This document shows positions 756 through 54,845 of a DNA stretch of 64,000 bases, one piece after another; position 1 is the stretch's first letter, and each line of letters starts with the position of its first letter. This DNA comes from Muriicola soli (lineage in GTDB: Bacteria > Bacteroidota > Bacteroidia > Flavobacteriales > Flavobacteriaceae). Both the position numbers and the translations under genes were made by a program. A model generated the notes under the pieces. The model was given only the letters and a program-made list of their open reading frames with translations. It was not told the origin of the DNA and did no database searches. The stretch covers positions 2,297,501 through 2,361,500 of the forward strand of contig NZ_CP035544.1 in assembly GCF_004139715.1 (NCBI RefSeq), written 5' to 3'.

Positions 756-783
756 AAATTCCAAATTCCAAATCCCAAATTCC
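756..783. repeat. four-unit heptamer array in the rRNA spacer
   Basis: Four uninterrupted 7-bp units are readable: AAATTCC, AAATTCC, AAATCCC, AAATTCC. They sit between tRNA-Ala and tRNA-Ile inside the transcribed spacer. The first three units match, in the same order, the last three units of the longer array at 51844-51906, so this appears to be a short copy of the same repeat family. Confidence 0.8.
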
Positions 784-902
784 AATGAGGTCTATTTAAG
801 CTTCAGCCTCTAAAATTTCCTAATTCAATATAATTCTCAATGAACGTGTGCGTTAGACCACTAAGGGCCTACTCTCTTTTGCACCTGATCTACTTTGCCA
901 AG

Positions 903-51589: not shown

Positions 51590-51660
<71 letters not shown>

Positions 51661-51662
<2 letters not shown>

Positions 51663-51784
51663 CAAAGAAAACCGGTCGCTGAAAGCGATCGGTTTTTTAT
51701 TTGTGGAAAAGCCAAGCTTGCTTGAGCTTTGGAACAAATGAAAAAGCGGCCAGTGCGCAAGCACTGAGACCGGCTTTCTTTGTA
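51661..51784. repeat. 15-bp inverted repeat at the initiator tRNA 3' end
   Basis: TACAAAGAAAACCGG at 51661-51675, the last bases of the tRNA plus the flank, is matched in inverted orientation at 51770-51784 (CCGGCTTTCTTTGTA) with one mismatch in 15. Between the arms lie the tRNA terminator and two hairpins: CCAAGC...GCTTTGG around 51712-51731, and CAGTGCGCAAGCACTG at 51751-51766, which has a GCAA tetraloop. Confidence 0.8.
51670..51699 (+). terminator. terminator of initiator tRNA
   Basis: Stem ACCGGTCGCT/AGCGATCGGT with one G-U pair and a GAA loop, followed by TTTTTATTT. Confidence 0.85.
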
Positions 51785-51906
51785 AAGCTACCCCCCAGGC
51801 CCTTTCCGAAACGAAGTTGAGGAAAGAATCCAGGCCCCTGGGGAAATTCCAAATTCCAAGCTCCAAGCTCCAAGCTCCAAGCTCCAAATTCCAAATTCCA
51901 AATCCC
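51772..51906. repeat. repeat module A copy 1 plus nine-unit heptamer array
   Basis: A conserved block beginning GGCTTTCTTTGTAAAGCTAC and continuing with CCCTTTCCGAAACGAAGTT, GAGGAAAGAATCCAGG and CCCCTGGGG (51772-51843), followed by nine perfect-period 7-bp units from 51844 to 51906 (AAATTCC twice, AAGCTCC four times, AAATTCC twice, AAATCCC). The block contains a CTTTCC/GGAAAG stem. Open frames here translate into meaningless WNLE repeats and are not genes. Confidence 0.85.
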
Positions 51907-51963
51907 AGAGTATAGCTGGTTTGATGGAGAGCAAAAACCAAAGTCTCGATTTACAAGGCGGAT

Positions 51964-52106
51964 GGCTTTCTTTGTAAAGCTACCCCCAAGGCCCTTTCCG
52001 AAACGAAGTTGAGGAAAGAATCCAGTTTCCTAAGGGAAATTCCAAGCTCCAAATTCCAAGCACCAAGTGCCACGCTACAAGCTCCAAATTCCAAATTCCA
52101 AGTAAC
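51964..52106. repeat. repeat module A copy 2 plus ten-unit heptamer array
   Basis: The same block as copy 1 with small differences (51964-52036), then ten in-phase 7-bp units from 52037 to 52106, some degenerate (AAATTCC, AAGCTCC, AAGCACC, AAGTGCC, AAGTAAC types). Period 7 is kept without slippage. Confidence 0.83.
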
Positions 52107-52220
52107 AAGTATGTGGTCTTTAAGGAACACATAGCTGCAAACCGAGCTCGCTCGAGTTTGCGGAAAAAGGTAAAGACATAACCTCGCAAGGGCGAGGTTG
52201 ATGGGTTTCTTTGTAAAGCC
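52107..52220. repeat. repeat module B copy 1
   Basis: A block of about 55 bp (AAGTATGTGGTCTTTAAGG, AACACATAGCTGCAAACC, a near-palindrome CAAACCGAGCTCGCTCGAG, GTTTGC) followed by a hairpin ACCTCGCAAGGGCGAGGT and GGGTTTCTTTGTAAAGC. A close copy lies at 54791-54845. The block ends 73 nt before the start of the TPR membrane protein gene. Confidence 0.82.
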
Positions 52221-52293
52221 GATAAGAGCCACCATTTCAAACTATTAAAGACTTTTTTGTACATTGAAGTAGTTAATCAAATTGCTCTAAACC

Positions 52294-54495
52294 TTGAAAT
52301 TCTTCGAGGAACTTAAAAAACGTAATGTTTATAAAGCTGGTGCGGCCTATCTGATTACCAGCTGGCTTCTCCTGCAAATTGTGGATGTCATTGGGCCCAA
52401 TCTGGGATGGCCGGATACCCTTGGTACATTACTAACCAAAATTCTCATAGTTGGATTACCAATTACCCTGGTTCTTGCCTGGCTGTATGAGCTAACTCCC
52501 AAAGGGTTTAAAAGAACCGGCACCTATCAGGAGGAGGCAGCAGATAACAAGAAGGCTGGGCGAAGGTTGAATTATTTCATTATAGGCGTCCTTTCGATTG
52601 CTGTTTGCTTTTTGCTAGTCGATAAACTGTTCTTATCCGAAAAATCAAATCAGAACCAGGAGGCCAGCATTGCTGTATTGCCATTTAACTTTTTGAGCAC
52701 GGTCGATAGCCTTTCCTTTATGTCGGAAGCCCTAAGTGGCGCAATTAGTGATAAGTTAAGTAAAGTAAGTGGCTTGGTGGTAATTGGCAAAACTTCAAGT
52801 TCACAGTTCAGAATACAAGGTGATCTTGTTAAGGAAATTAGACAAAAACTGAATGTAAATTACTTAATGGAAGGGGACCTCTTATTGGAAAGTAATCGCA
52901 TTCGATTATCGACCAGACTAATTAATACCTTAAACGGCAGGGTTCAATGGCAAAAGAAGTACGACCAGGATTTTGAAACAGTGATGGACCTTGAAGATGA
53001 CATTGCAGATAACGTAGTTAGAGAATTAAGAGTTGATGTTTTTCCGGATGAGTTCCTTCGGTTACGTAAAAAGGTTGCCAAAAACACTGAAGCATATAAA
53101 CTTTATCTGAAAGGTGAGCAATTAGGTCAAAAGCGTGATCAGGAATCTCTTAGGCAAGCGATTACCTTAATCGAAGAAGCCATTATCCTTGAACCCGATT
53201 TTGCCAAAGCCCATGCAGAACTTGTCATTCTTTATCAACTCCTACATAATTATGGAGAATTGAACCGTGACATAATGGTTGAAAAGATGCAGGATCACCT
53301 TCATAAAGCACAAAGCATAGATGCAGAATTGCCTGAAGTACTTACGGCTTCAGCCAGAGTGGAAGGTGTAATTAACAGGGATACTTCCAAAGCACTAGCC
53401 TATGTCCGAAAGGCTATCCAAATAAATGATAACTATGCCCCGGCATACTATGCATTGGGCAATCAGCTGGAGCGGATGGGTATGCAATCTGGAGCTATCC
53501 AGGCCTTGAAAAAGGCATATCAACTTGACCCCTATAACGACACCTATGTCTACAGATTGGCTGGTGTATACTATTACAATGAAGATGAGCCCGAGAAGGC
53601 CTGGGAACTCATAAATCGTATGTTGGAGGAAGATCCTTCAGCTTGGCTTACTGCAGGAAGAAAGGCCAGTATCCTTTGGAGAGAACCTTATGGTGATTTG
53701 GCCGGATCATTTATTACCATTCATAAAACTCGAGAGGACAATCAGTATGAGGCTTTCCAATTGGCTCTTATGGTAGATCGCTGCTTGAGTCTAGACTTAG
53801 CACCAATAGCAGAAAGATTTGTCAATTTACTACAAGGTAGGTACCCCAGCAACAGATTAATCTTAGGAAGACAATCGAAATTATACTTATTTAATAAGGA
53901 CTTTAGGGACAACATAGATCTGATTAAGGCGTGGGCAGCAAACGGTAAAATATCGGAGGATGAGGCAACTATATCTCTTGTAAAACAATACATTTCATTG
54001 CATCAATATGCGAAGGCAGAAGAACTTTTAAAATCTCTTTATCCAGAACTCTCTAAAACACTCGATTCTATAGATTCCGATGGCAAATTGCCAAATTATG
54101 AGTACCGCATAATCATTTTTTTCTTAGAAATTCGAAAGGCAAAAGGAGAGGACGATAAAATAGATATGATACTCAAGCAACTGTATGAAAATGAAAAAGG
54201 CTGGCATGAAAATTTTTATGCCTTGAAAAACTATTATTATTTGAAAGGTGAGGTTGATTCACTTGTTTACCACTTGGATAAGGCGTGGTTTGAAAAAAAG
54301 GACAGAGGGCGGTATCCTATTCTAGAGAATTATAGAATGGGTGATTTTCAGGACTTAGAGAAGGAACCTCTATTTATGGATTTTATAAATAAAGTTTTGG
54401 ATGAAACCCACCGCCAGCGGGCAGAGGTCATAGAATACCTTAAAGAACAAGGCGACTGGGACCCGGCCTGGGATAAGGAATTATTACTTGAGTAA
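52294..54495 (+). CDS. membrane protein with TolB/FlgO-like domain and TPR repeats
   Basis: A 733-residue protein with TTG start at 52294 (MKFFEELKKRNVYKAGAAYL, the standard opening of this family, so TTG is believed). There are two N-terminal spans (about 17-36 and 45-66) and a third at about 92-110, a TolB/FlgO-like domain (about 128-240; IAVLPFNFLSTVDSLSF, INTLNGRVQWQKKY), and tetratricopeptide repeats (about 265-500) with a helical C-terminal region. Related proteins are often fused to adenylate cyclase or DNA-binding domains, but this one has no such domain. Function unknown. It is flanked on both sides by the repeat modules and has no close partner gene. Confidence 0.82.
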   Translation: MKFFEELKKRNVYKAGAAYLITSWLLLQIVDVIGPNLGWPDTLGTLLTKILIVGLPITLVLAWLYELTPKGFKRTGTYQEEAADNKKAGRRLNYFIIGVLSIAVCFLLVDKLFLSEKSNQNQEASIAVLPFNFLSTVDSLSFMSEALSGAISDKLSKVSGLVVIGKTSSSQFRIQGDLVKEIRQKLNVNYLMEGDLLLESNRIRLSTRLINTLNGRVQWQKKYDQDFETVMDLEDDIADNVVRELRVDVFPDEFLRLRKKVAKNTEAYKLYLKGEQLGQKRDQESLRQAITLIEEAIILEPDFAKAHAELVILYQLLHNYGELNRDIMVEKMQDHLHKAQSIDAELPEVLTASARVEGVINRDTSKALAYVRKAIQINDNYAPAYYALGNQLERMGMQSGAIQALKKAYQLDPYNDTYVYRLAGVYYYNEDEPEKAWELINRMLEEDPSAWLTAGRKASILWREPYGDLAGSFITIHKTREDNQYEAFQLALMVDRCLSLDLAPIAERFVNLLQGRYPSNRLILGRQSKLYLFNKDFRDNIDLIKAWAANGKISEDEATISLVKQYISLHQYAKAEELLKSLYPELSKTLDSIDSDGKLPNYEYRIIIFFLEIRKAKGEDDKIDMILKQLYENEKGWHENFYALKNYYYLKGEVDSLVYHLDKAWFEKKDRGRYPILENYRMGDFQDLEKEPLFMDFINKVLDETHRQRAEVIEYLKEQGDWDPAWDKELLLE

Positions 54496-54581
54496 CTCGG
54501 TCCAATGGGCTGCAGACGTCAGATCAATTATGGTTCCTCCAGTCGTCAAATACCGCTGATAAATATGTTGTGCTATGACAA

Positions 54582-54672
54582 CTTTCTTTGTAAAGCTACC
54601 CCCCAGGCCCTTTCAGAAACGAAGTTGAGGAAAGAATCCAGGCCCCTGGGGAAATTCCAAATTCCAAGCACC
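54582..54672. repeat. repeat module A copy 3 with short heptamer array
   Basis: CTTTCTTTGTAAAGCTACC at 54582 onward is followed by CCCTTTCAGAAACGAAGTT, GAGGAAAGAATCCAGGCCCC and then AAATTCC, AAATTCC, AAGCACC. It is near-identical to copy 1 over about 75 bp; the single change CCG to CAG breaks the CTTTCC half of the inner stem. It begins 87 nt after the TPR gene stop. Confidence 0.83.
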
Positions 54673-54717
54673 AAAATTCAAGATAAAGCAAGCATTTCAG
54701 CAAAGAAGAAGCTAAGA

Positions 54718-54845
54718 CCTCGCTAAGGCGAGGTTGATGGCTTTCTTTGTAAAGCAAGCTCCAAATTCCAAATTCCAAATTCCAAATAGCAAGTATGTGA
54801 ACTTTAAGGAACACATAGCTGCAAACCGAGCTCGCTCGAGTTTGC
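54718..54845. repeat. hairpin, heptamer array and repeat module B copy 2
   Basis: A hairpin CCTCGCTAAGGCGAGG (54719-54734), then TTGATGGCTTTCTTTGTAAAGC, five heptamers from 54756 to 54790 (AAGCTCC, AAATTCC three times, AAATAGC), and module B from 54791 (AAGTATGTGAACTTTAAGG, CACATAGCTGCAAACCGAGC, CGCTCGAGTTTGC). The remaining 100 nt up to the GNAT gene show nothing further recognisable. Confidence 0.82.

Follow-up and report, generated by a model that had tools for sequence, protein, structure and literature searches.

tRNA-matched repeat units behind tRNA genes of Flavobacteriaceae, a candidate family of site-specific DNA elements

The array behind tRNA-Met in Muriicola soli

The window analyzed here is a 64,000-nucleotide stretch of the Muriicola soli genome (3.07 Mb, single contig; NZ_CP035544.1, positions 2,297,501 to 2,361,500 of the forward strand), in which a tRNA-Met(CAT) gene is followed by an array of short palindromic repeat units. 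The tRNA gene (51590–51663; ARAGORN; Rfam tRNA, 64.9 bits) appears from its sequence to encode the initiator (fMet), and it and all parts of its array lie on the + strand. The units match their host tRNA in two stretches, and units of the same plan are found behind other tRNA genes in this and other genomes. These tRNA-matched units form a wider, apparently undescribed element, and they account for repeats that resemble a local oddity behind a single tRNA.

The order of parts 3' of the tRNA is trailer, H1, H2, H3, linker, H4, heptamers, unit 2 and heptamers; onward come a module termed B with an H3-linker, a gene for a 733-aa tetratricopeptide repeat (TPR) protein, unit 3 and a second module B. 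In unit 1, the tRNA trailer (51661–51677) is 94% complementary over 17 nt to the linker (51768–51784), the two forming the 5' and 3' strands of a helix, P1, whose pairing was counted in a set of 33 fMet elements. Within the stretch that they span lie H1 (51671–51698), read as the terminator hairpin of the tRNA with its T-run (H1 contains RNA-type G-T pairs across the set); H2 (51699–51746), a long hairpin in the DNA fold of 51660–51842, closed at its base by pairing between a T-tract and an A-tract further downstream; and H3 (51751–51766), a perfect hairpin in the same fold and in per-hairpin pair counts. The linker is followed by H4 (51797–51833), a T-arm mimic whose end, AATCCAG, equals the T-stem of the host. 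A covariance model of H3-linker-H4 (CM R1) scores 84.4 bits at 51745–51833, a copy that belongs to its own training set. As single-stranded DNA, unit 1 (51660–51842) is predicted to fold according to this plan (-45.2 kcal/mol, z -6.8), with the trailer-linker helix gaining at the expense of a shortened H1; the bottom strand folds at -40.9 kcal/mol (z -5.5).

Unit 2 has a linker at 51962–51980 and an H4 at 51989–52025 (CM R1, 81.9 bits at 51938–52025), and the linker and H4 of unit 3 occupy 54583–54641 (67 bits at 54559–54641). An H3-like hairpin with linker and without H4 is seen twice, at 52181–52219 (repeat comparison) and at 54717–54755 (its linker and a weak CM R1 match of 24.1 bits at 54712–54789). 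Heptamer arrays, detected by a period-7 search and for the first and last also by a pattern search, fill 51844–51907, 52037–52103, 54652–54667 and 54756–54787. Module B lies at 52104–52161, with an H2-like hairpin inside, and its second copy, found by repeat comparison, at 54788–54845. The TPR gene (52294–54495; Pfam TPR families) is located between two array linkers.

The original prediction had described this region as a mosaic of modules A and B joined by heptamer arrays. The three copies of module A are real (51774, 51966 and 54582; over 101 nt, identity with the first copy is 76% for the second and 95% for the third), as are both copies of module B (with flank at 52071 and 54755, 88% identical over 105 nt) and the four period-7 arrays. 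AAATTCC dimers (≤2 mismatches) number 18 in the window, against a mean of 1.8 and a maximum of 5 in 100 shuffles. The predicted inverted segment at the tRNA end is likewise present as the complementary pair of P1. What had gone unseen is that this segment is the tRNA trailer and that the end of module A is a copy of the tRNA T-stem.

The units match their host tRNA

Behind fMet, Asp, Ser and Cys tRNAs, each linker reads by eye as the trailer of its own array in reverse complement, with mismatches in Asp. In the 33 fMet elements, 88% of P1 pairing is Watson-Crick, and 9 of 14 positions show compensatory changes. Because most of these elements were picked with a complementarity filter, more weight is given to a filter-free survey of one fMet locus per genome, from which 3 of 131 loci were dropped as too short. 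In this survey, pairing scores of at least 30 were observed at 9 of 128 loci, compared with 0.23 expected with swapped trailers, and scores of at least 18 at 24 of 128 loci, compared with 10.4 expected. The trailer-linker spacing is 102–113 nt in 32 elements, after three of 35 (L131, L146 and L168) were dropped as false.

The second matched stretch is the end of H4. Among units with a readable T-stem, 73 of 87 end exactly in host T-stem positions 61–64. Hosts with a CCTG tRNA-Met carry CCTG units in 11 of 12 cases and CCAG hosts carry CCAG units in 54 of 59, although related sequences in these counts are not independent. Mismatches to the host T-stem are seen in 6 of 71 Met, 4 of 11 Asp and 4 of 4 Ser units. 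The H4 stem is 97.1% paired, with two-sided changes at all 6 pairs, in an alignment fitted to the model. Covarying stems, which the original prediction had proposed as a check, are seen in P1 and H4.

Occurrence within the genome and across Bacteroidota

By plain sequence search, modules A and B are local: module A has three genome-wide matches, all at the window locus, and module B has its two main copies and weak partial matches. However, the unit architecture, partly decayed, is recognized behind 16 of the 40 tRNA genes of this genome (fMet, Met, Asp, two Ser, two Pro, Leu, two Val, four Arg, Phe and Ala), a visual reading rather than a test, with two second-type Leu modules excluded. The local accident that the original prediction had named as its alternative holds for plain sequence similarity and not for the architecture. 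When ungapped complementarity was scored for the 40 tRNAs, 7 had no equally scoring foreign trailer, one of which is false by eye. AAT or AAC followed by the own T-stem is present in 7 of 40 tRNA flanks and in 35 of 1464 foreign combinations (binomial 4e-5). Behind tRNA-Arg(acg), two units each terminate in a repeat of the tRNA 3' end, and a third unit begins after them.

A second module type, GACGAGAAGTTTAT plus a GC-rich hairpin, is found at tRNA-Leu(tag) and tRNA-Leu(cag) (L326:1–260 and L326:1470–1700). It expands the T-loop of the tRNA and closes with a repeat of the tRNA 3' end; in the first of the two cases, trailer and terminator are copied as well.

The proposed search of related genomes bore out the existence of a family, with CM R1 matches (E≤0.01) in 62 of the 397 genomes of the family. 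At the same threshold the model matches 17 of 295 genomes of the class, 15 of them outside the family; the best locus holds a tRNA in 8 of these 15 and none in 7 weak ones, and the best locus of one family genome in the class search (L252) is also without a tRNA. Within the phylum, 4 of 395 genomes match at E≤0.001, namely this genome, two family genomes and a fourth (L366) with no tRNA in its locus. These counts are probably low because CM R1 is tuned to fMet-like units. Besides fMet, arrays are observed behind tRNA-Asp, tRNA-Ser and tRNA-Cys of other genomes. Twenty further regions comprise 7 at tRNA-Asp, 8 at tRNA-Met and 5 with no intact tRNA, of which L281, L288 and L292 retain a tRNA 3' fragment; L281 shows one T-stem boundary without H4. 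The exact core pattern of module A gave no match in viral contigs and is present in 19 stretches of the genome collection, all Flavobacteriaceae: 11 with an intact tRNA-Met, 7 with a truncated tRNA 3' part (by reading) and one (L085) with neither.

Position and strand are uniform wherever an intact tRNA gene is near. The best 150 of the 169 CM R1 matches in 92 chosen sources comprise 113 distinct units. For 91 of them an intact tRNA gene lies within 3 kb, in every case upstream on the same strand; 17 of the other 22 lie behind a truncated tRNA 3' part (by reading). A repetitive extragenic palindromic (REP)-like or miniature inverted-repeat transposable element (MITE)-like nature, as originally suggested, is not supported, since module A copies are confined to one locus and the units near an intact tRNA share its strand and lie on one side of it.

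The heptamers are a separate repeat

The heptamer pattern (≤3 mismatches) has 52 genome-wide matches, with none for a backwards control. They fall at the window locus and about 11 other places, 5 of which are near tRNAs (by reading); these places include the spacer between tRNA-Ile and tRNA-Ala in two rRNA operons (window 756–785 and G000:C1:1682398–1682427). Given these other places, and the absence of heptamers from units at L044, L052 and L324, the heptamers are rejected as a component of the element; they form a dispersed repeat of their own and only a spacer in the array. Of the element family first proposed, the tRNA-linked part stands and the heptamers fall away. In the L275 array, another period-7 spacer, CAGAAGT-like, lies between units. 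TAACTGA heptamer repeats are also intergenic period-7 arrays and occur in a few Bacteroidetes too (PMC4679880), but their heptamer differs from the AAATTCC/AAGCTCC found here, which within the array is only a spacer.

The hairpins resemble DNA-level palindromes

RNA helices tolerate wobble pairs, and those of the same loci contain them: the G-T share is 4.0% in H1 of the 33 elements, 5.5% in the terminators of 116 element-less loci, and 8.3% and 6.1% in the acceptor stems and T-stems of the 40 tRNAs of this genome. In H3 (95 hairpins) and H4 (112), by comparison, only 12 of 1443 standard pairs are G-T (0.8%; Fisher, 6e-5 against H1 and 1e-13 against the element-less terminators). This near absence of G-U, unlike the RNA helices of the same loci, suggests that the palindromes are maintained as DNA. 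P1 has 15 G-T and 15 A-C cells and, like H2, shows no RNA-like G-T preference. The H3 loops are strand-specific, with GNA, GNNA or AAA in 47 of 95 hairpins and the reverse complements in 3 of 95; GNA-loop DNA hairpins are noted for their stability. Wobble-poor stems and loop asymmetry fit selection on one folded DNA strand, and the predicted fold and the loop asymmetry would be compatible with recombination of a folded single strand, although perfect helices could alternatively result from template switching. A known RNA family is rejected: an Rfam search of the region returned the tRNA alone, with Hrs13 (17.6 of 52 bits) and RsmY (15 of 57 bits) below the gathering score. The low number of G-U pairs in H3 and H4 speaks against the structured RNA that the original prediction had allowed for.

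Insertion footprints

Integration at the T-arm would be expected to duplicate the tRNA 3' end as a direct repeat and to displace the old terminator downstream. In about half of the fMet elements (17 of 33), the copy indeed extends over the rest of the tRNA 3' end with ≤2 mismatches in 10 positions, tracking host variants. Two loci show a displaced terminator: the post-repeat sequence of L083 agrees at 45 of 49 positions with trailer and terminator of L137, and that of L205 matches L139. By eye, neither comparison locus has an element, and CM R1 gives no match in their genomes (G030 and G024). Insertion is clear in these two loci, the only decisive ones; the rest are mixed.

Genes in arrays and nearby integrases

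Genes lie between or beside units in five arrays, a small sample chosen for inter-unit gaps. In addition to the window TPR gene, these are a SnoaL-like gene (G253), a 548-aa gene (G056), a 156-aa gene on the opposite strand (G198) and two genes in G150, the second of which stops right at an H3-linker-H4 unit. In four of the five arrays the genes are co-directional with the array, and they resemble cassettes. The homologues of the window TPR protein listed in two genomes of the same genus (G182 and G355) are 23–33% identical, and none is at an fMet array. Downstream of tRNA-Arg(tct) and tRNA-Pro(tgg) of this genome, at distances of ~250 bp to 14 kb, are paralogues of the window TPR gene (G000:C1:967652–969076, 974313–981059 and 940917–943611).

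This genome has four Phage_integrase matches, one of which, ~3.6 kb behind tRNA-Ser(tga), scores as a site-specific recombinase/integron integrase (NCBIfam NF040815, 226 bits; cut-off 220). Relatives of a 397-aa integron-like tyrosine recombinase (L353:3869–5062) are present in 183 of the 397 genomes of the family, many of them close to the end of a contig.

At truncated fMet loci, of which seven were read, a tyrosine integrase is adjacent in 4 of 5 tested (L070, L081, L082 and L084), indicating that islands use the fMet site; at L079 the single open reading frame tested is FecR-like. In 6 of these seven loci the cut in the tRNA falls at the anticodon loop, with the modules downstream of the tRNA fragment on the chromosome side, so that, as read, they lie outside the islands. 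The six (L070, L078, L079, L081, L082 and L084) have differing upstream sequences, suggestive of frequent island integration.

Origin of the units

We regard it as about evenly balanced whether the modules are remnants and copies of a DNA-level, site-specific element family of ~130–190 bp at tRNA gene 3' ends. A complete unit would bring a trailer and terminator for the tRNA, thereby preserving its function, and would have a palindromic interior of H2, H3 and the trailer-complementary linker, followed by the H4 mimic of the host T-arm. Site-specific recombination would insert it at the T-arm, probably with one DNA strand folded and with a recombinase presumably supplied in trans. Repeated insertion and ordinary tandem duplication may then build arrays, inside which genes such as that for the 733-aa TPR protein could sit. 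Among the options of the original prediction, a recombination substrate is the best supported, at the DNA level, although no recombinase was found.

Several results weigh against this explanation. When the post-repeat flank is compared with the element's own trailer, it resembles element-less loci better in 9 of 17 cases, worse in 7 and equally in 1. Window units 2 and 3 lack trailer and H1, and array growth must therefore be at least partly plain duplication; in unit 1, the repeat beyond the T-stem matches at 4 of 10 positions and so is not kept. Ser units match the host T-stem in 0 of 4 cases and Asp units in 7 of 11. H2 is not wobble-free (7 G-T, 6 A-C and 236 Watson-Crick pairs), and the H3 columns are ~50% paired in the fitted alignment, because H3 aligns poorly. 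No recombinase is encoded in any unit read. The integron-like recombinase was rejected as the enzyme: it is present (E≤1e-60) in 31 of 62 model-positive and 152 of 335 other genomes (p 0.58), with weak CM R1 matches counted as positive.

Some of these results would be expected if the units were immobile and arose when part of the tRNA 3' region was duplicated in tandem, the palindromes being created and kept perfect by template switching at inverted repeats and amplified by slippage and unequal crossing-over. Such an origin, possible though doubtful in our view, would accommodate the incomplete units 2 and 3, the lack of a recombinase, the 7 of 17 unfavorable comparisons, the almost purely Watson-Crick H3 and H4 and the equal A-C and G-T counts in P1, and near-identical tandem units are indeed known from the tRNA-Ser array L250. 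However, the same H4 plan carries host-specific T-stems at fMet, Asp and Cys tRNAs, L083 and L205 continue as element-less loci after the repeat, and the H3 loops favor one strand by 47 to 3. Covariation in P1 and H4, an RNA fold with z -6.3 and the sense position 3' of the tRNA in 91 of 91 units would instead suit a structured RNA that is made by transcription running on past the tRNA gene and whose linker pairs with the pre-tRNA trailer and acts on tRNA maturation or termination. We find this improbable, since H3 and H4 are nearly free of G-U, unlike the terminator and tRNA stems, the whole unit lies beyond an intrinsic terminator, and Rfam yields only the tRNA and two matches far below gathering.

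Ordinary integrase islands at tRNA genes might also have left the units as attachment-site scars. Tyrosine integrases do stand beside truncated fMet genes, and tandem accretion with repeats of the transfer-messenger RNA (tmRNA) 3' end is known (PMC3146451). This explanation is very improbable, as the modules lie on the chromosome side of the anticodon-loop cut in 6 of 7 truncated loci and as the units have a defined structure with constrained spacing, unlike random remnants.

Comparison with known systems

Integron attC sites are imperfect hairpins that recombine as folded single strands and form unidirectional cassette arrays. The arrays described here are likewise unidirectional, and in some of them genes are followed by a hairpin unit. 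They differ in being tRNA-anchored; no attI/intI pair was seen, the R-box consensus is loosely resembled by eye, and the integron-like recombinase is not associated with the units. We consider it unlikely that the elements make up a tRNA-anchored cassette system. In such a system, tRNA T-arms would provide the primary sites of attachment, H4 would be recombined as a folded single strand and would have to match the T-arm of its host, and small gene cassettes would be collected, and may be shed, by the arrays that stand behind many tRNA genes. REP and bacterial interspersed mosaic elements and MITEs are short palindromic non-coding repeats, whereas the units here are undispersed, tied to tRNA 3' ends and variable in sequence per tRNA. 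The rtT repeats behind E. coli tyrT are tandem and contain a tRNA 3'-end fragment, at one locus; we know of no anti-trailer or T-arm mimic in them.

Tandem accretion at tRNA genes (tDNA) is described for the Dehalococcoides ssrA islands, and these share the regenerated tRNA or tmRNA gene, the 3'-end direct repeat, tandem stacking and some integrase-free units (PMC3146451). Different here are gene-free units of 130–190 bp, many tRNAs per genome, the T-arm mimic and the anti-trailer palindrome. In the open-access literature, which leaves most subscription papers outside, no description was found of units adapting two stretches to the host tRNA. If T-arm insertion is true, it would represent minimal, gene-free integration at tRNA sites, and possibly a gene-capturing system in Bacteroidota. 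In Arenibacter sp. 6A1, two convergent tRNA-Met genes with module copies flank apparent broken transposase genes (L077:4018–6056).

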